The notes under the pieces were generated by a model, which saw only the letters and a list, made by a program, of their open reading frames with translations, had not been told where the DNA came from and made no database searches. Below are positions 2,971-16,927 of a stretch of DNA of 19,829 nt, in pieces. A program made the translations under genes and the position numbers. Location of the stretch: the NCBI GenBank assembly GCA_028290305.1, contig JAQGKC010000157.1, positions 1-19,829 of the forward strand. Direction: 5' to 3'. Origin of the DNA: Bradyrhizobium sp. Lineage in GTDB: Bacteria > Pseudomonadota > Alphaproteobacteria > Rhizobiales > Xanthobacteraceae. Every line of letters starts with the position of its first letter. Within the stretch, counting starts at the first letter, position 1.

Positions 2971-3867
2971 TTACGCATCGGCGAGAACGAGGACGCCGCC
3001 ATGTTCGGGTGAGATCACATAAAGCTGGTCGGGAATGACAATCGCCGTCGTGTGTGCACCCCGGCCGGTCACGGTCCGGTCGGTGGCGCCCGTTTGTGGA
3101 TTGATGGTTTCGACGAGACCCGGATCGCCGATGGCGACATGCACGAGGCCCGTCGACGGATTGAAAAAGGTCACATCCGGCATGCCTGCAATCGGCCAGA
3201 CGTTGGTGATTTTCCCGACGTCGCTATCAATCTCGACCAACGCGCCGTTGTCGCAAGCGGCATAGAGACGCTTGCGACGATGATCGATGTCGAGGCCGTG
3301 GGCGCCGCTCGACGGCAGCTTCCAATGAACGACATCACTGAGATCGGGGAGACGTGCGACCAGCACCATCGAAGGCTCGCGGATGCAGAGGTAGATCCGC
3401 TCGGCGTTGGCATCGGTCACGCACCAGCGCGGCCGCCCCGGCAAATCGATCGCGCGCTGAGTGACTTCGTTCAAGTCTATGATTTGCAGTACCGGACCTT
3501 GCTGCGCATCGCCAATGCATGCGGCTATGCCAATGCCCGTACGTTTGACGATAGCGGCGCCGTTGGGCCGTGGCCCCGATGGGAATACGGCTTTGATCTT
3601 GTAGGTCGCGGCATCCAGCCAGGTGATGGTCGCGGCGCCGCGATTGGTAGTTAGTATCTCTCCGTCATCGGCCACCGCACCCGCGACACCCGGAAACCCT
3701 GGCAGTGTTGCGATGTGCCTTTGCGCGTCGTGATCGATCACTTCGATGCAGTCGCGCGCGGTGTGTGCGATAAAGACGCGCCGGGTTTTGGGATCGAACG
3801 CGGCGTGGTCGAAGTCGCTGTCCGTTCCGTTCGGGATTTCGATAACACCAAGCGATTTCAGGGGCAT
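2971..3867 (-). CDS. YVTN/YncE-type beta-propeller protein without signal peptide
   Basis: 298 residues. The sequence is a run of roughly 40-residue blade repeats: FDPKTRRVFIAHTARDCIEVID near 24-45, then TWLDAATYKIKAVFPSG near 83-99, GLDIDHRRKRLYAACDNG near 190-207, and VTFFNPSTGLVHVAIGDPG further on. Such 'feature seen on a strand, then V-D at its end' repeats are typical of 40-residue YVTN/lactonase-like propellers. No export signal is seen: it begins MPLKSLGVIEIPNG, so it should be cytoplasmic, unlike the secreted relative at 9959-10957. Known relatives bind ligands or serve as scaffolds, and enzyme activity is not established. The ribosome site is weak (GAAGCGAGAAGCTGCC before ATG). It stands alone on this strand between the LysR relic and the GST operon. 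Function unknown. Confidence 0.8.
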   Translation of the reverse strand: MPLKSLGVIEIPNGTDSDFDHAAFDPKTRRVFIAHTARDCIEVIDHDAQRHIATLPGFPGVAGAVADDGEILTTNRGAATITWLDAATYKIKAVFPSGPRPNGAAIVKRTGIGIAACIGDAQQGPVLQIIDLNEVTQRAIDLPGRPRWCVTDANAERIYLCIREPSMVLVARLPDLSDVVHWKLPSSGAHGLDIDHRRKRLYAACDNGALVEIDSDVGKITNVWPIAGMPDVTFFNPSTGLVHVAIGDPGLVETINPQTGATDRTVTGRGAHTTAIVIPDQLYVISPEHGGVLVLADA

Positions 3868-4054
3868 GGCAGCTTCTCGCTTCCAGACCGGAAAACGAAT
3901 TGAACATTAGGGTGCGGTAAGGAATGACCGTCCACGCGCAATCTCCTCGAACGTCGAGCATTGCGCAGAGCTTGGACCGAGGTCTCGCGGGGAGTCTGCC
4001 TATCCCCGTATCGTCAATCTAGCGACGCCACAGGCGTATGGCAATCGCGACCCG

Positions 4055-5132: not shown

Positions 5133-6044
5133 ATGCGCCCGCGCCTGCCGCCATTGAATAATCTGAAAGCGTTCGAGGCTGCCGCCCGCCGCGAGAGCTT
5201 TACGCGTGCCGCCGAAGAGCTCTGTGTCACGCAAGGCGCGGTGAGCCAACAGGTCAAGGCTCTTGAAGAAGGTCTTGGAGTCAAGCTGTTCAATCGCGAA
5301 CGCCAACGCCTGATTATCACCGATGCCGGCCGCGACTATCTCACGGTCGTCCGCGATGCCCTGGACCGCATCGCGGTTGGCACAGAACGGCTGCTACAGC
5401 GTCAGAATACCGGCGTCCTGACAGTCAGCACCTCGCCGGACTTCGCGGCCAAATGGCTGGTGCTCCGGCTCGGTCATTTTGCCGAGGCGCATTCCGGCAT
5501 CGACCTCCGCGTCTCGGCGACGCTGCATCATGTCGATTTCGCGCGCGAGGAGGTCGACCTTGCCGTCCGGCACGGTGACGGCAATTGGCCGGGCTTCGAT
5601 ACGGTCCAGCTCAGCGCTGAGCAGCTTTTTGCCGTTTGCAGCCCCAAGCTCCTGTCTGGTCGCCGCCGGCTCAGCAAGCCGGCCGACATCCTGAAATTCC
5701 CGCTGATCCATCTGGATAACCGGACCGATTGGACAAAATGGTTGCGGTCTGCCGGGATTAATGACGGCGACGTCATGCATGGTCCGGTTCTTAACCGGGC
5801 GAGCATGGTGATCGATGCGGCCATCGACGGCCAAGGCGTTGCATTGGCGCGCACAACTTTGGCGGCCTGGGATCTCATCAACGGCAGGCTCGTCCGTCCT
5901 TTTCCGGATTCGCTTCCGCTGTCGAAGACCTATTGGATTATCTGTCCGAAGGCGACGTCGACCATGCCCAAGATCGTGACATTTCGCGACTGGCTCCTGG
6001 CGGAAGCATCTCAGGACTTGCAGCAACTGAAGAAGCGCAGCTAG
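5133..6044 (+). CDS. LysR-family transcriptional regulator (GcvA-like)
   Basis: 303 residues, the standard LysR length. The N-terminal helix-turn-helix (about 5-65) starts LPPLNNLKAFEAAARRESFT and continues with RAAEELCVTQGAVSQQVKAL and GLGVKLFNR, the form seen in GcvA-like members. A substrate-binding domain follows from about 92 to 295, with DLAVRHGDGNWPGF and LIHLDNRTDW motifs typical of that subgroup. It should bind DNA as a tetramer and respond to a small ligand, unknown here. It is transcribed divergently from DUF1127-GST. A weak GAAGTGG lies 5 bases before the ATG. A rotted relative of this gene sits at 2731-2962. Confidence 0.93.
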   Translation: MRPRLPPLNNLKAFEAAARRESFTRAAEELCVTQGAVSQQVKALEEGLGVKLFNRERQRLIITDAGRDYLTVVRDALDRIAVGTERLLQRQNTGVLTVSTSPDFAAKWLVLRLGHFAEAHSGIDLRVSATLHHVDFAREEVDLAVRHGDGNWPGFDTVQLSAEQLFAVCSPKLLSGRRRLSKPADILKFPLIHLDNRTDWTKWLRSAGINDGDVMHGPVLNRASMVIDAAIDGQGVALARTTLAAWDLINGRLVRPFPDSLPLSKTYWIICPKATSTMPKIVTFRDWLLAEASQDLQQLKKRS

Positions 6045-6140: not shown

Positions 6141-6175
6141 TTGACAGATAAAATCTTGTGGGCGAATTCGCGCGT
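6141..6175 (+). promoter_or_regulatory. promoter of the cytochrome c operon
   Basis: TTGACA at 6141-6146 is a perfect -35 hexamer. A 17-base spacer leads to GAATTC at 6164-6169, a poor -10. The start of transcription would then fall at about 6176, the first base of the ACGGGG stem. The ChrB gene far downstream has TTGACA at exactly the same distance (29 bases) before its own ACGGGG stem. That equal spacing is the main reason to believe both. Confidence 0.6.
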
Positions 6176-6247
6176 ACGGGGAAGCGATCTCCCCGCGAGG
6201 CGACATGCCAAAGAATCGCGTCCGTTTTCCTTCAAGGACGCAGCATG
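6176..6247 (+). promoter_or_regulatory. structured leader RNA (chrB-like motif), copy 1, ahead of cytochrome c
   Basis: Stem 1 pairs CGGGGA (6177-6182) with TCCCCG (6190-6195). Its loop contains GCGAT (6184-6188), which can pair with ATCGC (6215-6219) to give an H-type pseudoknot. A second hairpin pairs GCGTCC (6218-6223) with GGACGC (6236-6241) and covers the AAGGA ribosome site, four bases before ATG 6245. The second hairpin and the pseudoknot strand share two bases (6218-6219), so they may compete. The element GAGGCGACATGCC (6197-6209) and CAAGGACGCAGCATG (6233-6247) recur in the leader at 16820-16892. A candidate structured RNA called chrB has been described in front of chrB genes, and I could not test this sequence against it. 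Likely a translation switch. Confidence 0.75.
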
Positions 6248-6898
6248 CCCGCCACTCAAGTCACTCCCCCTCCCACTTTTTCTCGCGTTTCGGCGTTCGG
6301 CAGTTGGCGATCCGCGCTCTGGGTATCTTCCATCCTCGCTATCGTCGTAGCCGGCACTGATCGCGTTGCGGCAGATGCCGAAGCCGGAAAAGCGAAGTCG
6401 GAGACCTGCGCAGCATGTCACGGCGACAACGGCGTCTCGCAAACTGAGAACACGCCATCGCTGGCCGCGCAACCCAACCAGTTTCTCCAATGGCAGTTGG
6501 TCTACTTCCGCAGTGGAGCGCGCAAGAGCGAAGTCATGGCGCCGGTCGCAGAGCAACTCAGCAATGGAGACATTCGCGATCTTGCCGCTTATTTCGCCTC
6601 GCTCCAGCCGCCAAGCAATCCCGGTTCGAAGGCGCCGGACGATCACCCGGACTTAACCGAGGCCGCAAAAAAAGCGGTCGTTGCCGACAGGTGTATTTCT
6701 TGCCACGGCGACAATTTTGCCGGCACCAAGGCGGTGGCAAGGATTGCAGGTCAGCGTGAAGAGTATCTGCTCAAGGCGCTCCACGACTACAAGTCCGGCC
6801 AACGCGTTGGTGGAGGCGTAGCGGCAATGGCGGAGGTTGCCTATCCGCTCAGTGAAGATGATATCGCGGCCCTTGCTCACTATCTCTCGCGACTGTGA
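6245..6898 (+). CDS. di-haem cytochrome c (cytochrome c4-like)
   Basis: 217 residues from ATG 6245. The frame is open further up (from 6158), but that would run through the conserved leader RNA, and CAAGGACGCAGC gives the ribosome site at 6245. An N-terminal hydrophobic segment (about 24-43, SALWVSSILAIVVAG) ends in VAADAEAG, a likely cleavage site. Two CxxCH haem sites are present: CAACH (C55, C58, H59) and CISCH (C150, C153, H154). M98 and M195 are candidate sixth ligands in the MAPVAEQLS and MAEVAYPLS loops. The two similar halves match the c4 architecture: periplasmic, carrying electrons to an oxidase or another acceptor. It heads a run with a PepSY-like protein, a dead SOD and a cytochrome b, so it may take electrons from the cytochrome b. 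Confidence 0.92.
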   Translation: MPATQVTPPPTFSRVSAFGSWRSALWVSSILAIVVAGTDRVAADAEAGKAKSETCAACHGDNGVSQTENTPSLAAQPNQFLQWQLVYFRSGARKSEVMAPVAEQLSNGDIRDLAAYFASLQPPSNPGSKAPDDHPDLTEAAKKAVVADRCISCHGDNFAGTKAVARIAGQREEYLLKALHDYKSGQRVGGGVAAMAEVAYPLSEDDIAALAHYLSRL

Positions 6899-6953: not shown

Positions 6954-7283
6954 GTGGACGCGCAGACATGTACGAAGAGGAGAAGCACGACGACACGTAA
7001 GTGGTTATTGGCCGGCGGCGGCCTGCTTTTGCTGGCGATCGCCGGCGTGGCGGTTGTCACCGCGGAGCCCAGCAAAGGGCCGGTCTTCATTGCAGGGGAT
7101 CAACCGGTCACCGAGGATCAGGTGCGGCAGAAGCTGCAGTCCGATGGCTGGTCGAACGTGCAGATCGTACGCGGAGGACGGTATCTTGAGGCGATCGGGT
7201 CAAAGGCCGGTCAGACTACGAAGGTTGCCGTCGACGCGTCGACCGGCAGGTTGCGGGCCGGCGATGACGACGACGATGACTGA
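6954..7283 (+). CDS. PepSY-like membrane-anchored protein with acidic tail
   Basis: 109 residues from GTG 6954, preceded by GGGGGAG (6936-6942). It has a basic N-terminus, one membrane helix (about 17-36, KWLLAGGGLLLLAIAGVAVV), then an extracytoplasmic domain of about 65 residues with V(T)EDQVRQKLQSDGWSNVQ and VAVDASTGRLR. These are typical PepSY-type alpha/beta features. The tail is six aspartates. PepSY domains are usually envelope proteins tied to protease inhibition or to redox/metal systems; the exact role is not readable. The start is doubtful. The GTG lies in the loop of a perfect 6-base hairpin (6947-6961). ATG 6968 begins a 10-codon frame (MYEEEKHDDT) that stops just before the membrane helix, as if one base had shifted the original N-terminus. 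Confidence 0.75.
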   Translation: MDAQTCTKRRSTTTRKWLLAGGGLLLLAIAGVAVVTAEPSKGPVFIAGDQPVTEDQVRQKLQSDGWSNVQIVRGGRYLEAIGSKAGQTTKVAVDASTGRLRAGDDDDDD

Positions 7284-7476: not shown

Positions 7477-8721
7477 ATGAAGATGTCGTCGCAAACTCAA
7501 GGAACTGAACCTCAAAGCGATTTCTCGAACCCAGTCGTTCGGTGGATCGACTATCGGCTTCCGATATTCACGTTCCTGCACCGCGAACTACGTACTTATC
7601 CGGCGCCAAGAAATCTTAACTACCTCTGGAATTTCGGATCGCTTGCAGGCGTCGCGCTCGTGACGATGATTGCGAGCGGAATAGTGCTTGCGATGCACTA
7701 CGTTCCGACTAACGAAGGTGCGTTCCAGTCAGTGGAACACATGATGCGTGACGTGAATTATGGATGGCTCATCCGGTACATTCACACCACGGGCGCATCG
7801 ATGTTTTTCCTGGTGGTCTACATCCACATTTTTCGCGGTCTCTATTACGGGTCGTACAAAGCGCCACGCGAGCTGCTTTGGTGGCTTGGCGTCATCATCC
7901 TGTTGCTGATGATGGGAACTGCATTTTTTGGCTATACGTTGCCTTGGGGCCAGATGAGCTTCTGGGGAGCTACCGTGATCACAAATCTGTTCTCTGCAAT
8001 TCCGGTGGTGGGTGACAGCATCGTAACCTGGCTTTGGGGCGGTTACACGGTTGGCGCTCCGACGCTCAACCGGTTCTATGCGCTGCACTACCTTTTGCCG
8101 TTTGTGATCGTGGCAGTGGTCGGGCTGCATCTCGTGGCCCTGCATAGGTTTGGATCGAACAATCCGACAGGGATCGATCTAAAGGATGCGGGCGATACGA
8201 TCCCGTTCCATCCATATTATACTGCGAAGGACATCCTCGGTCTGGTGATATTCTCTTTGGTGTTTGGGTGGTTCGTATTCTATGAGCCGAGCGCTCTTCT
8301 CAACTCGGACAACTACATTCCGGCGAACCCCGGCGTGACGCCCGCGCATATCGTGCCCGAGTGGTACCTACTGCCATTTTACGCGATTCTGCGGTCGATC
8401 CCCAATAAGCTGCTCGGCGTTGTCGCAATGCTGAGCTCCATTCTGGTGTTGTTCTTGCTGCCTTGGCTCGACACCAGCCCCGTGCGCTCGGGACGCTTTC
8501 GGCCTGTGTTCCGGATATTCTTCTGGACCTTGCTGGGTGATTGCATCCTGCTTGGCGACGCCGGTGCTCAAGCTCCAGAGGGTACCTGGCTTGCTCTGAG
8601 CAGAGTTGGCGCGGGTTACTATTTCATCCACTTCTTTGTTGTCCTGCCTCTTATCGGCGTGATCGAACGACCACTTCCGCTTCCAATCAGCATCAGCAAA
8701 CCTGCTCTTCAATCAGGATGA
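7477..8721 (+). CDS. cytochrome b (bc1-type), stand-alone
   Basis: 414 residues, the length of a bacterial cytochrome b (PetB/FbcB). The four haem ligands are H103, H117, H204 and H218, each pair 14 apart, in [17 protein letters not shown] and [16 protein letters not shown]. The quinol-site motif PEWY is at 294-297, and [19 protein letters not shown] spans about 152-170. Eight or nine hydrophobic helices are present, as in intact proteins. It would oxidise quinol in the membrane. No Rieske iron-sulphur gene and no cytochrome c1 gene lie beside it, which is not how a housekeeping bc1 operon looks. It may pass electrons to the upstream cytochrome c, or use subunits from elsewhere. No clear ribosome site is seen before ATG 7477 (CGAAACAAGAGATG), and an ATG two codons later is an alternative. 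Confidence 0.9.
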
Positions 8722-11598: not shown

Positions 11599-12780
11599 TC
11601 ATTTCACCATCACCCATGCCGGCTGCAGCAACGGGTATGCGATCAGGCCGACCACAGCCGTGGCCGCAATCAGGAGCGGATTGCTCACCTTCCAGCGGAA
11701 CAGGATCGTCAGCGAGGCGATCCCGATCAATGCCGTCAGCCAGTCGCCAATCGCGATGCGTCCGAGCAGGATGCACGCGCCCAGGATCGTTCCGATCGCC
11801 GCGGCGTAGGCGCCTTTGACAAAGCCCTGCACATTGGGATTGCCGCGATGCCGCGCCAGCAGAGGCGCGGCAATCAACACCAACAGGAAGGACGGCAGGA
11901 AGATGCCAATGGTCGAGACCACGGAGCCCCAGAAACCCGCGACGAGATAACCGACAAAGGTTGCGGTGATGACCACCGGCCCCGGACTGATCATGCCGAT
12001 TGCGACCGCAATCAGGAACTGGCGCTGGTCGAGCCAGCCGAATTGCTGCACCAGTCCCTGTTCGAGAAACGGCACGATCACAAGGCCACTGCCGAAGGTG
12101 AGCGAGCCTGCCTTGAGGAAGAACAGCAGGAGCTTGCCAAGAATGGAGCCAGAGGCTGTGGCGGTGGGCGCAAGCTGCGCCAGTACCGGCGGGGCGGCGA
12201 GCGAGAGCGCGGCCGGCGTTCGCTTGAACATGTTCCCGTAATAGAGAATGCCGACGATCCCGGCACCGATGAACATCAGCGCGACTTCAGACTGCAGGAT
12301 CACGGTAACGGCAAGGCACACCGCCGCGATCACCCATTGCAGCCAGTCTTCCATGCCGAGCTTGGCAAGCCGGTAGCAGGAATGCAGGATTAACGCGATC
12401 ACGGCCGGGCTCACGCCATAGAAGATGGCGGTGACCGGCTGCAGGTCGCCGAGATAGACATAGAGCGCGCCAAGCGCTGCCACGATGACGAAGTTCGGGA
12501 AGATGAAGGCCCAGCCGCCGGCCCAGGCGCCCCAAAAGCCGCCGCGCAAATAGGAGATGTAGACGCCGACCTGGATCGCTAGCGGCCCCGGCAGCGACTG
12601 ACAGATGGCAATGGCCTCGCGCATCTGCTCCTTGGTGAGCCATTTCTTGCCGTCGACCAGCTCGCGCTCCATCTGGCCGACCAGCGCCACCGGCCCACCG
12701 AAACCAAGACAGCCGAGCCGCAAGAAATAGCGCACCAACTCGCCGATCCGGCCGCGCTCGATGTCAGTCGTCGTCGTCAT
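11599..12780 (-). CDS. chrA: chromate transporter ChrA
   Basis: 393 residues, a full two-domain ChrA. The N-half starts with LVRYFLRLGCLGFGGPVALV and carries CQSLPGPLAIQVGVYIS. The C-half repeats the pattern with FFLKAGSLTFGSGLVIVPFL and GMISPGPVVITATFVGYL. The duplicated FGGP/PGP motifs and about ten hydrophobic helices are characteristic of the CHR family, which exports chromate (and is inhibited by sulfate) to the periplasm. GGGGACAGGCACA precedes the ATG. It lies 14 bases after the unknown secreted gene, within the ChrB run, as in known chrBAC clusters where chrB, chrA and a superoxide dismutase (chrC) travel together. Confidence 0.95.
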   Translation of the reverse strand: MTTTTDIERGRIGELVRYFLRLGCLGFGGPVALVGQMERELVDGKKWLTKEQMREAIAICQSLPGPLAIQVGVYISYLRGGFWGAWAGGWAFIFPNFVIVAALGALYVYLGDLQPVTAIFYGVSPAVIALILHSCYRLAKLGMEDWLQWVIAAVCLAVTVILQSEVALMFIGAGIVGILYYGNMFKRTPAALSLAAPPVLAQLAPTATASGSILGKLLLFFLKAGSLTFGSGLVIVPFLEQGLVQQFGWLDQRQFLIAVAIGMISPGPVVITATFVGYLVAGFWGSVVSTIGIFLPSFLLVLIAAPLLARHRGNPNVQGFVKGAYAAAIGTILGACILLGRIAIGDWLTALIGIASLTILFRWKVSNPLLIAATAVVGLIAYPLLQPAWVMVK

Positions 12781-12794
12781 TGTGCCTGTCCCCG

Positions 12795-13184
12795 TTATTT
12801 GTTGTCCGTTGGCGGCTGAATGATGCCGTCAAGCTTCCCGCCCAGCCCCATGGGCTTCATCTCGATCGTGTTTCCGGTAAGCGACACTTCGTAACAGCCG
12901 TCATCCGGCTCCTGCAGATAAAGGCATAGCTCGTCCTCCTCGACGACCCATTTGCCGACCTTCTTCACGCCCATCGAATAGCTTCGCAGCGTTCCGTCGC
13001 GGTCATAGACGAACCGATAGTGCACCTCGTCGGTGAGCTGCATCCCGGCCAGCTTTGCACGGATCTGTGCGCCCGATAATTTCCGAAGGCTTTGCGCGGC
13101 GACAAAGTCGGCATCGAGGGCAACCGCGCCCCCGATGCCGCAGGCGAGTGCCGCGATGAGGCACTTCACAGGTAGTTCGCTCAA
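12795..13184 (-). CDS. conserved secreted protein of unknown function
   Basis: 129 residues from TTG 13184, chosen because AAGGA lies 7 bases before it, overlapping the stop of the preceding gene; a GTG at 13169 is the alternative. Residues about 6-30 form a signal peptide (CLIAALACGIGGAVALDADF, cut near AAQS). The mature part contains LSGAQIRAKLAGMQLTDEVH, then SYSMGVKKVGKWVVEEDELC and a C-terminal beta-rich part with two cysteines (LCLYLQEPDDGCYEV). This 'allele-like' small beta protein pattern (heat, acid or lipid binding) is not diagnostic and I do not assign a family. It is tightly packed between the six-cysteine protein and ChrA, so it is very probably co-transcribed and linked to chromate stress. 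Confidence 0.75.
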   Translation of the reverse strand: MSELPVKCLIAALACGIGGAVALDADFVAAQSLRKLSGAQIRAKLAGMQLTDEVHYRFVYDRDGTLRSYSMGVKKVGKWVVEEDELCLYLQEPDDGCYEVSLTGNTIEMKPMGLGGKLDGIIQPPTDNK

Positions 13185-13194
13185 TCAGTGGTCC

Positions 13195-13374
13195 TTACTT
13201 TTTGCAGGATTTCATGCACATCTGATACTCGGACTTGCAGGTCGGCCCGGCATAGTTCTTCATGCATGCCTTTTGCTGGTCAGCGCAGACCTTGCAGCTT
13301 GTCTGCGCGCGTGCGGCCTCGAACGCCGCACAAGCGCTAATCGCTACTACCAGCGCGGTCATTATAACTCTCAT
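13195..13374 (-). CDS. small secreted six-cysteine protein
   Basis: 59 residues from ATG 13374, with GAGGAGG about 9 bases upstream (GCGAGGAGGTCTGGTCATG). A longer frame is open upstream but overlaps the SOD gene; the ATG with that ribosome site is the real start. Residues 1-23 are a signal peptide (MTALVVAISACAAFEAARAQ). The mature part holds six cysteines in about 35 residues: C27, C30, C37, C46, C53 and C57, including CKVC and CMKSCKK. This could be a disulphide-stabilised mini-protein or a thiolate metal binder. It sits between the SOD (66 bases further up) and the unknown secreted gene. I recognise no family. Confidence 0.75.
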   Translation of the reverse strand: MRVIMTALVVAISACAAFEAARAQTSCKVCADQQKACMKNYAGPTCKSEYQMCMKSCKK

Positions 13375-13430
13375 GACCAGACCTCCTCGCTGGCATTCGC
13401 CTTTTAGATGTTGGTGAGCGGCATTTCGCA

Positions 13431-14150
13431 CTAGGATTCGCGGCTGTACTGGTCGTACAGCTTCGCAGCATTGTCCCATTTGATCGCTTCCATGTAGATA
13501 TCGACATATCGCGCGGCCGCAGCGCCGTAGTCCATGTGATAGGCGTGCTCGTACATGTCGAGTACAAGCACCGGACGACCGCCAGCGAGCGTCGTCGTAT
13601 GGTCGGCCGCCCATTGGTTGACCAGCCGCTTGTCGCGCGGAGAATAAGCCAGGATAACCCAGCCTGACCCGCCGCCTTCGGCCTTGCCCATCGCGGCGAA
13701 CTCGGCACGCCACCGCTCCATGCTGCCGAAATCGCGTGCGATTGCATCGACGAGCGCACCATTCGGTTTGCCCGCTCCACCGAGGCCGTCGAAATAGATC
13801 TCATGAAGGATCATCGAGTTCGATGCGACCAGCTCTTCGCGCTTGAGGCCGTTGATGACGAAGTTCGGCGCTTTGGCGAAGTCAAGCTCAGCCAACTGCG
13901 TGCCGATCGCGTTCAAGCGCTTGACCGCGCCGACATAGTTGTTTTCGTAGTGACTTACGAGCACCTTCTCCGAAATGCCGGCGATCGATTTGGGATCGAA
14001 CGACATCGGTTTGGCTTGATACGGCATGGCCTTGCCTCCGGTTTGGGGGTTGCTTTGAGCCAGCGCTTGGCTCGTGGCGAGCACCGCCGTGGATGCAGCG
14101 GCCGCGCCGACGCCAGCGATGAAGTTTCGTCGTTCGTTATTCAGGGTCAT
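13431..14150 (-). CDS. Fe/Mn superoxide dismutase with twin-arginine export signal (ChrC-like)
   Basis: 239 residues. The N-terminus MTLNNERRNFIAGVGAAAAS has RRNFI and a long hydrophobic stretch ending AQSNP, as in Tat substrates, so the folded metalloenzyme would be exported to the periplasm. Metal ligands expected for the family are visible: H67 (VSHYENNYVG), H116 (SMILHEIYFDGLGG), D198 and H202 (LDMYEHAYHMDYG). It disproportionates superoxide, which is formed when chromate is reduced. In known chrBAC operons chrC encodes an iron superoxide dismutase, so this is the local equivalent, but located outside the cytoplasm. GGAGAGACAT precedes the ATG. Lies 80 bases from the DUF1259 gene. Confidence 0.92.
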   Translation of the reverse strand: MTLNNERRNFIAGVGAAAASTAVLATSQALAQSNPQTGGKAMPYQAKPMSFDPKSIAGISEKVLVSHYENNYVGAVKRLNAIGTQLAELDFAKAPNFVINGLKREELVASNSMILHEIYFDGLGGAGKPNGALVDAIARDFGSMERWRAEFAAMGKAEGGGSGWVILAYSPRDKRLVNQWAADHTTTLAGGRPVLVLDMYEHAYHMDYGAAAARYVDIYMEAIKWDNAAKLYDQYSRES

Positions 14151-14230
14151 ATGTCTCTCCGTTTTTCAGCAACCCCGGCATATTGAAAGCCGCATGTTGC
14201 ACGCTGATGGCATGGCAGCCTCAAGCAAGC

Positions 14231-15175
14231 TCAACTCTTGGTGCTCGCAGTTTTCTCGAGTGCGGCGCGCAGACCCTTGGCCAGCTTTATGGCATCGTCA
14301 TTGGCCCAGAAATGCATGAAGAACAGCCGCGGCTGTTCGTCCAACATGTGATTGTGCAAAGCCGTCATGTCGATGCCGTGAACCCGCAGCGCCATGATCA
14401 CCGGATTGACCTCGTCGCCGGTCAGGACGAAATCGCCAGTGATGGCGGCCTTGCCGCCGCCGGTCGGCTGGAAGTTGATGCCGATGGCGACACCCATCGG
14501 CCCCACTGGCGCAAGCTGCATGCCTTCCTCGGTGATTGGGTCGCGGCGCGGCACGTTGAATTGATAGACGCCACCATTGGCTTGCCCCTTCACGCCGATA
14601 ATCTGGTCGAGCTGCGCTGTATCAAGATCGACGGCCGGCGGCGGAGCTGCTGGAGCTGCAACCGTCAACGGCGTCTGGCTTTCGGCGAGAGCATCGCGGA
14701 TTGCAGTGGCGATCTTGATCGGGTCGCCGTGGCCGGCGACGTGCATGTAGAAGGTCGCAGGGCTTGCGCGCAGCAGGTGGTTGTGAACAGCCGTGATCTC
14801 CAGGCCGCTCGCGATCATCTTCAGCATGACCGGGTTGATCTCCGACTCGAGCAACACCAGATCGCCCATCGCCATAACGCCACCGTGCGCGGGCTTGAAC
14901 GCGATCCAACCGCCGAGCGCGAGAGCCGGCTTGATGGTCACTCCGTCGAGCGTCACCGTGAGATCGGTCCGCGGAAAACCATAGCGATGCACGTCGGCCG
15001 TGACCGCGGGCTTCCTGCCCAACACCTCATCAACCTTTTGCCAATCGATGTCCTGCGCGTGGGCAGCGGATACAAAGGGCTCCGCAAACACCTGCCAGTC
15101 GAGTTTTTGAGCGCCCGCACCGGAGGCGAACAGGGATGCACAGATTCCAGCCGCCAGCATAAGTGTGTTTCGCAT
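14231..15175 (-). CDS. DUF1259 protein, two repeats (LppY/LpqO-like)
   Basis: 314 residues with a signal peptide (MRNTLMLAAGICASLFASGA, cut near GAGAQ). The mature part has two copies of a domain of about 125 residues. The first has LEITAVHNHLL, then FYMHVAGHGDPIKIATAIR. The second has IDMTALHNHMLDEQPRLFFM, then HFWANDDAIKLAKGLR. The H-N-H and M-H signature is characteristic of DUF1259, found in LppY/LpqO-type envelope proteins; function is not established, but the histidines suggest metal binding. The repeats are joined by an alanine/proline-rich linker (about 170-185). AAGGAGCA immediately upstream gives the ribosome site. It lies between the small beta-type secreted protein and the exported SOD in the ChrB run. 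Confidence 0.9.
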   Translation of the reverse strand: MRNTLMLAAGICASLFASGAGAQKLDWQVFAEPFVSAAHAQDIDWQKVDEVLGRKPAVTADVHRYGFPRTDLTVTLDGVTIKPALALGGWIAFKPAHGGVMAMGDLVLLESEINPVMLKMIASGLEITAVHNHLLRASPATFYMHVAGHGDPIKIATAIRDALAESQTPLTVAAPAAPPPAVDLDTAQLDQIIGVKGQANGGVYQFNVPRRDPITEEGMQLAPVGPMGVAIGINFQPTGGGKAAITGDFVLTGDEVNPVIMALRVHGIDMTALHNHMLDEQPRLFFMHFWANDDAIKLAKGLRAALEKTASTKS

Positions 15176-15248
15176 TGCATTGCTCCTTGATCGAACCTAG
15201 TCCCTTGGTGGATACGACCACTGCAACGGCGAAGGCCGCGACGGCCGC

Positions 15249-15593
15249 CTATTCCATCGAGAGCCCCACAATGGTCTTGGCGCCGGCGATATTTTGTACG
15301 GTGACCTCGACCTGATCGCCGTAGCGAACGGCATTGAAGATCAGGGCGTCCTGGACCTTGAACTGCTCTGTCTTGTCCTGAGACAGCCGGATTTTGATTG
15401 TGTCGTTCCCCTGGTCGACGCTGTCGATGATGCCGCGCAAAGTCTCAGTCGCTGGCTTGGGTGCCACGACCGTCCCTTGCGCAATTGCACCAATCGTCTC
15501 CTGCTTTACATGCGCCTTGTCGACGGTCGCAGGCCCAGACAGGGCCTCACCTGGCAACAGGGCGAAAGCTAGCGCGATCGCTATTGATCTCAT
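15249..15593 (-). CDS. small secreted beta-type protein (CusF-like fold suspected)
   Basis: 114 residues from ATG 15593; an ATG five codons earlier (15608) has no ribosome site, whereas GGAGCGAAGGAAC stands before 15593. Signal peptide is MRSIAIALAFALLPGEALSG. The mature part ends with a beta pattern (GIIDSVDQGNDTIKIRLSQD, then FKVQDALIFNAVRYGDQVEV and an ending VTVQNIAGAKTIVGLSME). This is like small OB-fold periplasmic proteins of the CusF type, which often hold copper or silver, but the CusF metal residues (W44, M47, M49, H36) are not recognisable. Call is therefore structural only. It is between the ChrB-side PepSY-like gene and the DUF1259 gene. Confidence 0.7.
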   Translation of the reverse strand: MRSIAIALAFALLPGEALSGPATVDKAHVKQETIGAIAQGTVVAPKPATETLRGIIDSVDQGNDTIKIRLSQDKTEQFKVQDALIFNAVRYGDQVEVTVQNIAGAKTIVGLSME

Positions 15594-15644
15594 GTTCCTT
15601 CGCTCCATCGTTGAGTGGCGCCCGCGGGACTCGGGAGCCGGCTC

Positions 15645-16003: not shown

Positions 16004-16822
16004 TCACGACTTCACCTTGTTGGTAGGCCAGTTGTGCGTCTCCTTCGTCGCGTCGCGGCACCAGCGGTAGAACGCGTCGTACAGGACAAGGCCGGCATTC
16101 AACTGCTCGAGGTCGTCGTCGAACATGCGCGACAGGCCGAGCGAGGCGGCGAGCAATCCGGGTGCCTCCGGAGACAGGTCGAGCCGAGCGGTATCCGCGG
16201 CCCGTACCATGGTCGCAAGTCGATCCAACGACGGCGTCGAGAGGCCGAACTCCTCGACCATCACATCGAAGGTGCAGAGTTCGCCGCGATGACTCCAGAA
16301 CACATTTTCGATGTCGAAAGGGGTCGCTTCGAAGCGTTCGGCCACGGTCTCGACTTCGGACGCCGTGACGAACAGGAAAACCGCGGCAGGATCGATGAAG
16401 CGCCGGATCAGCCAAGGACAGGCGATGCGGTCGATCTTGGGTCGCGATCGCGTGACCCAGACTGTGCGGCTGCGCCCGTCGCGTTTCGGGATCTTGTCGG
16501 CGGGGACGGTTGGCAGCTTCGCCTGTTTCCAGCCGACGTGGCCGCCCTCTAAAACTTCCGCAGCGACATTGCCGCACCGGAGCCAGGCGGCGGTGCCCTC
16601 GCTGAGCTTCTGGCCCTTGTTGCAGACGACGACAACGGACTGGCCGGTCATCCGGGATGCCCAGTCCTGCACTTCGCGATGCGACCGTCGTACCGCACCA
16701 GGGATCAGGCGGGGGTCTTCCGCGAAATCCTCGTCGATGCGGACGTCAATGAGGGCCGGCGCATTCTGCGTGCCGATCAGACGATACAATTTTTCGGATG
16801 AAATCGAGCTGTAAGAAGACAT
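16004..16822 (-). CDS. rhodanese domain fused to ChrB C-terminal domain (chromate resistance)
   Basis: 272 residues from ATG 16822. The frame is open further up (to 16927), but that would cross the conserved leader RNA and its -35 box, so the start is at 16822 with AAGGACGCAGC before it. Residues about 10-105 form a rhodanese-like domain with the active-site loop VVVVCNKGQKLSEGTAAWLR (C67) and the LEGGHVGWKQAKLP end. Residues about 118-265 are the ChrB C-terminal domain: SRPKIDRIACPWLIRRFIDP, then AAVFLFV, FDVMVEEFGL and FYRWCRDATKETHNWP. ChrB proteins sense or resist chromate; in other species the N-terminal part is a transcription regulator, here replaced by a rhodanese. It is the first gene of an eleven-gene run that includes chrA and the SOD. 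It may be a redox/sulphur enzyme as well as a resistance protein. Confidence 0.93.
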   Translation of the reverse strand: MSSYSSISSEKLYRLIGTQNAPALIDVRIDEDFAEDPRLIPGAVRRSHREVQDWASRMTGQSVVVVCNKGQKLSEGTAAWLRCGNVAAEVLEGGHVGWKQAKLPTVPADKIPKRDGRSRTVWVTRSRPKIDRIACPWLIRRFIDPAAVFLFVTASEVETVAERFEATPFDIENVFWSHRGELCTFDVMVEEFGLSTPSLDRLATMVRAADTARLDLSPEAPGLLAASLGLSRMFDDDLEQLNAGLVLYDAFYRWCRDATKETHNWPTNKVKS

Positions 16823-16892
16823 GCTGCGTCCTTGGTGATTCAGGACGCGATACTTGGGCATGTCGCCTCGACGGGGGATCGCAAATCCCCGT
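16820..16892 (-). promoter_or_regulatory. structured leader RNA (chrB-like motif), copy 2, ahead of rhodanese-ChrB
   Basis: Read on the minus strand from 16892. Stem 1 pairs ACGGGG (16892-16887) with CCCCGT (16876-16871), and its 10-base loop contains GCGAT (16882-16878). GCGAT can pair with ATCGC (16851-16847), giving an H-type pseudoknot. Hairpin 2 pairs GCGTCC (16848-16843) with GGACGC (16831-16826) and hides the AAGGA site; ATG is 16822-16820. GAGGCGACATGCC, ATCGCGTCC and CAAGGACGCAGCATG are shared with the leader at 6176-6247, while the loops between differ, as expected for conserved structure. The hairpin loop is one base shorter here, and the reading frame through the leader is not kept, so it is not a coding relic. 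Likely a translation or transcription switch. Confidence 0.8.
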
Positions 16893-16927
16893 CCTTTAAA
16901 TAAAACCCCTGCCGAACGCGCTGTCAA
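16893..16927 (-). promoter_or_regulatory. promoter of the ChrB run
   Basis: TTGACA at 16927-16922 is a perfect -35 hexamer. After a 17-base spacer stands TTTATT (16904-16899), a fair -10. Transcription would begin at about 16892, the first base of stem 1. The cytochrome c operon has the same hexamer at the same distance, 29 bases before ACGGGG, although the bases between differ. Confidence 0.65.

Follow-up and report, generated by a model that had tools for sequence, protein, structure and literature searches.

The stretch of DNA analyzed here (the window; 19,829 nt) raises the question of why a di-haem cytochrome c gene carries the same leader as a chromate-resistance gene located ~10 kb away on the opposite strand. 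An earlier note on this DNA had described the repeated leader, a TTGACA exactly 29 bases before the stem, and shared sequence blocks and hairpins, and had proposed that one RNA ties a cytochrome c/PepSY/cytochrome b operon to chromate-resistance genes. Searches of the window with cmscan identified positions 6173-6247 (plus strand) as chrB-a RNA (Rfam RF03078; 78.4 bits, E 4.7e-12) and revealed a second chrB-a at 16820-16895 (minus strand; 63.7 bits, E 6.5e-9). Both scores are far beyond chance, lie above the Rfam gathering cut-off for chrB-a (43.9 bits) and cover the full model (positions 1-80). The leader RNA is already catalogued as chrB-a, and chrB-b (RF03086) is a related element. The pair forms an inverted repeat of 40 nt at 88%; the blocks GAGGCGACATGCC and ATCGCGTCC and two hairpins are common to both copies, and in each exactly 29 bases lie between TTGACA and ACGGGG, where the first stem begins, as the note had described. 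An ATG is positioned directly 3' of both structures. Each leader is thereby in cis, on the same strand as and directly upstream of a protein gene, rhodanese-ChrB_C in one case and cytochrome c in the other. The repeat is therefore real and the RNA of a kind already known, and the cytochrome c behind it is part of the chromate cluster. The principal features of the window are as follows.

3965-4008, minus strand: chrB-b RNA (RF03086, 52.2 bits), ahead of the beta-propeller gene at 2971-3867
6141-6146, plus strand: TTGACA, -35 element in the promoter of the cytochrome c operon, from the sequence
6164-6169, plus strand: GAATTC at the -10 position after a 17-nt spacer, a weak match to the family consensus, from the sequence and family comparison
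6173-6247, plus strand: chrB-a leader, full RF03078 model, ending in the cytochrome c ATG
6245-6898, plus strand: di-haem cytochrome c, with two stretches each of PF00034 and PF13442
6954-7283, plus strand: small protein, "PepSY-like" in the earlier note; no Pfam match at E 0.001
7477-8721, plus strand: cytochrome b/b6, which may not belong to the leader operon
11599-12780, minus strand: ChrA, chromate cluster
13431-14150, minus strand: Fe/Mn SOD, chromate cluster
14231-15175, minus strand: DUF1259 protein, chromate cluster, on the strand of the rhodanese-ChrB_C gene
15249-15608, minus strand: CusF-like protein, below the Pfam cut-off, within the cluster 11599-15608
16004-16822, minus strand: rhodanese plus ChrB_C protein, no ChrB_N match in the domain scan
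16820-16895, minus strand: second chrB-a leader (RF03078), before the rhodanese-ChrB_C gene
16922-16927, minus strand: -35 element TTGACA of the second chrB-a copy, from the sequence

The cytochrome c copy proved weaker than the earlier note had stated. The repeat, the -35 element and the hairpins held, but the -10 position (GAATTC) is a poor match to that of the family, and the folding energy alone is not unusual, as 15 of 200 shuffles folded as well (z -1.65). For the copy at 16820-16895, one shuffle in 200 was as good (z -3.29). The first stem (P1) is recognizable in 121 chrB-a copies, and TTGAC starts 33-39 nt before its GGGG in 107 of them, against a base rate for TTGAC of 1.8% in control windows of the same loci; the remaining copies have a TTGC-type hexamer (11/121) or no element (3/121) at the -35 position. 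A T-rich -10 element follows 17 nt beyond the -35. The predicted promoter is fixed in position relative to the chrB-a leader in these sequences, so that transcription would be expected to start at or just before P1.

The fold was examined by structural comparison of 122 chrB-a and 75 chrB-b copies, comprising 120 and 74 copies, respectively, in 160 fetched regions plus the three copies in the window, of which 74 distinct chrB-a rows and 34 chrB-b rows were aligned. The elements of the cytochrome c leader, all on the plus strand, are listed below.

6177-6195: P1 hairpin CGGGG...CCCCG (Rfam structure line, fold)
6184-6188: P1 loop GCGAU, 5' strand of a pseudoknot (alignment)
6199-6209: P2 mini-hairpin GGC-GACAU-GCC, the 5' side of which can alternatively pair with the start-codon region (alignment, folds)
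6215-6219: AUCGC, 3' strand of the pseudoknot, with 6218-6219 common to P3 (alignment)
6218-6241: P3 hairpin GCGUCC/GGACGC, the 3' strand of which overlaps the Shine-Dalgarno sequence AAGGACG (Rfam structure, alignment)
6243-6253: start-codon region GCAUG..CGCC; the predicted minimum-energy fold pairs it with 6199-6208

The P1 and P3 helices of both window copies are those of the Rfam structure line, with P3 on the Shine-Dalgarno side, and are present in the folds and in the alignment. Neither the pseudoknot nor P2 appears in the Rfam line, and the Rfam model extends no further than the ATG. Both are described here, together with a helix that may reach into codon 2. The pseudoknot is not new, as the accessible part of the CaCoFold report names 'chrB RNA' among those to which a pseudoknot was added (PMC7657543). 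Pairing between the P1 loop and AUCGC was observed in 98.1% of cells with nine double-change cells in the 74 chrB-a rows, slid controls were 5-58% paired, and none of 500 shuffles was as good, although related sequences inflate the shuffle tests in general. P3 was paired in 99.1% of cells with eight double-change cells in the same rows, a value that is partly due to selection because P3 belongs to the Rfam model with which the rows were found. Alignment columns 63 and 64 are common to the pseudoknot and P3, and both helices contain double changes. Two mutually exclusive helices therefore share these columns and tie the folded core to the Shine-Dalgarno sequence, as expected of a riboswitch. 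For chrB-b (34 rows), a pseudoknot in the same place showed 98.2% paired cells and 19 double-change cells. The sequences themselves show the pseudoknot, P3 and the bases common to both in the chrB-a family, as they do family membership, promoter position and gene neighbourhoods. A Shine-Dalgarno-like trimer is located ≤16 nt from the start in all 122 chrB-a copies, within the 3' side of P3 and most commonly 9 nt before the start (75 copies). The start codon follows P3 by 1-6 nt without a U tract in the 74 aligned chrB-a rows, which argues for translational control and not for termination; an attenuator based on an intrinsic terminator, with a hairpin and U run, was rejected on the same grounds.

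When both window leaders were folded with ~15 nt of the following gene, P1 and P3 formed together with a helix in which the GGCGACAUGC block pairs with the start codon. The start region pairs with P2 in the minimum-energy folds of 98 of 121 chrB-a leaders (one of the 122 was omitted), and in all 121 at least four of the ten bases before the AUG pair with upstream bases. The mean unpaired probability in these leaders was 0.20 for the AUG and 0.20 for the Shine-Dalgarno sequence, compared to 0.44 and 0.43, respectively, in shuffles. The variable base N of the P2 motif GGCGNCA forms a standard pair with N', the base after the AUG, in 90 of 107 canonical rows (A-T 64, G-C 16, T-A 4, C-G 2, G-T/T-G 4) against a mean of 65.9 and a maximum of 75 in 10000 shuffles, and is broken in 17; when every row with a recognized P2 is counted, the pair is standard in 97 of 120 and broken in 23. 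On a tree of 68 ChrB proteins the two positions changed 10 and 8 times, with three coincident changes where 0.6 were expected (P 0.014), and 12 one-sided changes ended in a standard pair in eight cases and not in four. The cytochrome c copy has a non-standard A-C combination at N/N', and other bases pair instead in its predicted fold. Overall, there is moderate support for a helix that joins the chrB-a leader to the start codon. The equivalent helix in chrB-b gave mixed values: 78.9% of cells were paired by column count versus 76.1% in shuffles (14/500 as high), the covariation score was equalled in 94 of 500 shuffles, and ungapped complementarity was 12.6 versus 11.3 (0/1000 permutations as high) in the 62 of 75 copies that were usable. 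As kinship was not removed from the latter test, the chrB-b helix is a lead only. In the chrB-b copy at 3965-4008 and in other copies, the P2 strand adjoining the CAAG block is complementary to the start-codon region (CCGUCC/GGACGG, CCAUCC/GGAUGG).

Leaders above the cut-off were detected in 52 (chrB-a) and 50 (chrB-b) of 198 genomes sampled from the bacterial family of one relative. In a sample of the class of that relative, chrB-a was found in 29 of 385 genomes. It was also present in 15 of 16 genomes with relatives of the cytochrome c, a sample biased by being chosen for that property. No match was recovered from the 14 control genomes in any genome search. A Neorhizobium galegae plasmid, pNgVX, also has chrB-a immediately in front of its gene for chromate resistance. 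Genes behind the copies outside the window were labelled by homology only, using Pfam/NCBIfam on reference proteins and tblastn at E 1e-8; the CusF-like reference falls below the Pfam cut-off, Pfam gave no match for one of the lectin-like references, and the PepSY label is the name used in the earlier note. The first gene recognized within 450 nt behind the 120 chrB-a copies was chrB in 82 cases and chrA in nine; chromate genes thus make up the majority. Genes of other kinds came first in 25 (SOD 4, MFS 4, DUF1259 4, CusF-like 4, lectin-like 3, beta-propeller 2, with amidohydrolase, TauE, ABC and RND once each among them), and none was recognized in four. Same-strand matches to chrA (92) and chrB (85) were found in the fetched stretches behind these copies. 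Behind the 74 chrB-b copies the first genes were TauE (22), DUF6815 (12), chrB (10), lectin-like (5), MFS (4), SOD (3), beta-propeller (2), DUF1259 (2), and chrA, amidohydrolase, PepSY and MATE (one each), with none in 10. Among the genes classed as other than chrB behind chrB-a leaders, 26 of 39 begin with chrB-like residues at p < 0.05 compared to control N-termini, after removal of one row (a68) that is really chrB in another frame; the count is inflated by apparently shortened chrB genes (a99, perhaps a45 and a56) and may be inflated further if codon 2 is under RNA constraint. These starts are consistent with a leader that was duplicated along with the opening chrB codons, or with genes that have lost the body of chrB. 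A clear chrB remnant at the start of the window cytochrome c gene is not claimed (p 0.06 only).

The relationship between the leader and the ChrB repressor was assessed at 129 of 135 ChrB_C places found in the 198 genomes. An adjacent leader, within 700 nt upstream, accompanies 70 of the ChrB_C genes (60 over the cut-off and 10 below), and 59 are without one. ChrB_N was found at 26 places and is fused to ChrB_C at 13; all 13 fusions are among the 59 ChrB_C genes without an adjacent leader and none is among the 70 with one (hypergeometric P 1.7e-5, kinship ignored). Domain scans of 35 leader-led proteins, namely that of the window and 34 of 89 others, detected ChrB_C in 35, rhodanese in 34 and ChrB_N in none. 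In these scans ChrB_N is absent behind the leaders, which differs from what control by a ChrB-type repressor would entail. The 46 unfused ChrB_C genes without an adjacent leader divide into 13 with a ChrB_N gene no more than 4 kb away, 10 with a more distant upstream leader (≤2.5 kb) and 23 for which neither was found. Thus, 33 of the 59 genes without an adjacent leader have no ChrB_N within 4 kb, 23 of which also lack a leader within 2.5 kb, and an exchange between RNA and protein cannot account for all cases. A related known system is ChrB of TnOtChr in Ochrobactrum tritici, which controls the chr genes in response to chromate and shares ChrB_C with the leader-led proteins. According to the accessible part of that report, chromate control requires both halves of ChrB, and its authors proposed that the N-terminal half binds DNA and the C-terminal half detects the metal (PMC3817168). 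TnOtChr ChrB is a DNA-binding protein, whereas the leader-led ChrB_C proteins possess rhodanese in place of ChrB_N.

Twenty close cytochrome c loci were scanned (L001-L021 without the near-duplicate L012), and the outcome for the check proposed in the earlier note, cytochrome c homologues lacking the leader, was divided. Six (L001, L002, L003, L005, L007, L020) possess chrB-a within ~6 kb of the cytochrome c gene and 14 do not; a tRNA gene is present in 10 of these 14, and the absence of a leader from L016 and L017 says little as both are cut near the gene. Both kinds of locus occur in strain Leo170 (L002 with chrB-a, L004 without) and in strain WSM2783 (L001 with, L008 without). In a cytochrome c tree of 23 rows the seven leader-linked proteins cluster, with two label changes against 6.0 when shuffled (0/500 as low), although 13 of the 20 inner branches are open. 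At five places the cytochrome c gene is inside a leader-led chromate cluster: leader-CusF-cytC (L001/L252), leader-CusF-cytC-PepSY-leader-SOD-DUF1259-chrA (L002/L242), leader-lectin-cytC-ABC (L003/L159), leader-chrB-CusF-DUF1259-cytC-leader-chrA (L005/L245) and leader-chrB-CusF-DUF1259-cytC-SOD-chrA (L007/L246). The window is the only one of the 122 census copies in which cytochrome c is directly behind chrB-a; outside the census, the gene is directly 3' of the leader in Bradyrhizobium sp. STM 3843 (L020). The STM 3843 cytochrome c is shortened (L020:375-904) and lacks the first haem motif. The link that the earlier note regarded as its least expected feature is less unexpected because cytochrome c recurs in leader-led chromate clusters. 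The proposed link of cytochrome c to chromate genes through one RNA family is borne out by these clusters and by L020, but no match to cytochrome b was found at E 1e-8 in 183 other loci searched. A homologue of the small protein at 6954-7283 follows cytC in L242. Between the small-protein gene of the window and that for cytochrome b, a fragment at 7351-7455 matches SOD residues 203-237 at 43% across 35 residues, with E 3.6e-7 in a search of four short stretches, and by its sequence is a remnant of a second SOD copy. The remnant is consistent with an older gene order of cytC-PepSY-SOD, like that of L242, and cytochrome b may therefore be a late neighbor. The cytochrome c may help to reduce chromate or to deal with chromate damage.

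Taken as a whole, the comparative evidence points to chrB-a as a cis-acting translational ON switch for chromate-stress genes that most likely binds a ligand, a reading to which we assign a probability of roughly 0.55; the switch may be a chromate riboswitch that has taken over from the ChrB repressor. In the default OFF state, the Shine-Dalgarno sequence would be masked by P3, with the 5' strand of P2 paired to the start-codon region. In the signal-bound ON state, the pseudoknot between the P1 loop and AUCGC would form and P2 would close, and as both compete for bases with the OFF helices the ribosome site would be freed. The direction of the switch, the ligand and the role of the cytochrome are inferred; the signal would most likely be chromate or a direct consequence of its entry. 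The leader would substitute for the DNA-binding ChrB repressor, and copies of it, sometimes with the first chrB codons, would have been placed before accessory genes including the window cytochrome c. The leader-led MFS, RND, MATE and TauE transporters, which are not chromate-specific, count against the ON switch as described. A more far-reaching version is tentative, and we consider it the less probable outcome: chrB-a and chrB-b may be two forms of one chromate riboswitch that replaced ChrB in Alphaproteobacteria, in which the OFF pairing of P2 extends over the start codon to codon 2, and which was duplicated into a regulon that includes a periplasmic cytochrome c.

A rival is a riboswitch for another signal, such as a sulfur oxyanion, a product of oxidative stress or a metal ion, which would control chromate genes only insofar as chromate gives rise to that signal. 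Outside the window, 22 of 74 chrB-b copies have TauE/SafE as their first gene, SOD, DUF6815, MFS and RND genes occur behind leaders, and the rhodanese domain is present in 34 of the 35 scanned proteins; nevertheless, same-strand chrA (92) or chrB (85) genes follow most of the 120 chrB-a copies, and we regard this alternative as somewhat unlikely. Doubtful to a greater degree is a leader that acts as a binding site for a protein, for example rhodanese-ChrB_C itself, which would autoregulate translation of the regulon. The position of chrB as first gene behind 82 of 120 chrB-a copies is a usual layout for autoregulation, and ChrB_C residues influence the chromate response in O. tritici as far as the accessible part of the report describes (PMC3817168). 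However, leaders match in genomes in which a search of this kind returned no ChrB_C, e.g., G059 and G041 (whose assemblies may be incomplete), and a pseudoknot in competition with a Shine-Dalgarno hairpin can work without protein.

An RNA thermometer or other unliganded structure would also explain why the Shine-Dalgarno sequence and AUG are masked in the predicted fold, but conserved loop letters and a pseudoknot are unexpected of a thermometer, no heat-shock gene was recognized among the first genes (14 of 194 were not recognized), and the ROSE model, which was in the searched library, gave no match at the leader at its gathering score. The thermometer was rejected on the last of these results and is very improbable. 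An attenuator that depends on a leader peptide starting at the ATG of GACATGCC is hardly credible: GAGG precedes this ATG in many copies, but the ATG itself is present in only 63 of 122 chrB-a copies, spread over the three possible reading frames with respect to the gene (33, 20 and 10 copies), so that no short open reading frame is conserved and this candidate was rejected.

The preferred reading, a liganded translational switch, has parallels in the fluoride (crcB) and preQ1 riboswitches, which are likewise short leaders with a pseudoknot and precede genes for resistance or transport. The letters and structure of chrB-a differ from those of both. Another comparison is chrB-b, which is found in the same islands as chrB-a and similarly has P1 with a loop pseudoknot, P2, a CAAG block and a Shine-Dalgarno hairpin, but differs in a larger P2, other pseudoknot letters and other typical first genes (TauE, DUF6815). 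The open-licence literature searched yielded nothing on the function or ligand of chrB-a and nothing on point concerning chromate riboswitches or cytochrome and DUF1259 genes in chromate clusters. chrB-a thus appears to be an orphan cis-regulatory RNA. The present data provide a concrete, testable switch model for it, in which an alternative fold is named, a signal is proposed and the RNA may have changed places with a protein repressor during evolution. If the chromate-riboswitch reading is true, the leader would represent a naturally occurring RNA that senses a toxic metal oxyanion. The cytochrome c, DUF1259, DUF6815, TauE and lectin-like proteins may act in chromate tolerance.

Several additional observations were made. 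A LysR gene fragment (40% over 102 residues) is present in the window at 2763-2948 and resembles the intact LysR gene at 5133-6044. At four loci (L187, L192, L184, L180) chrB-a and chrB-b are arranged back to back and face divergent genes of one island, and one genome (G198; L300) contains 10 chrB-b matches, several of which are close together on one small contig. A ROSE thermosensor precedes an Hsp20 gene (L351:1195-1288) on a Bradyrhizobium plasmid that also carries chrB-a and chrB-b.
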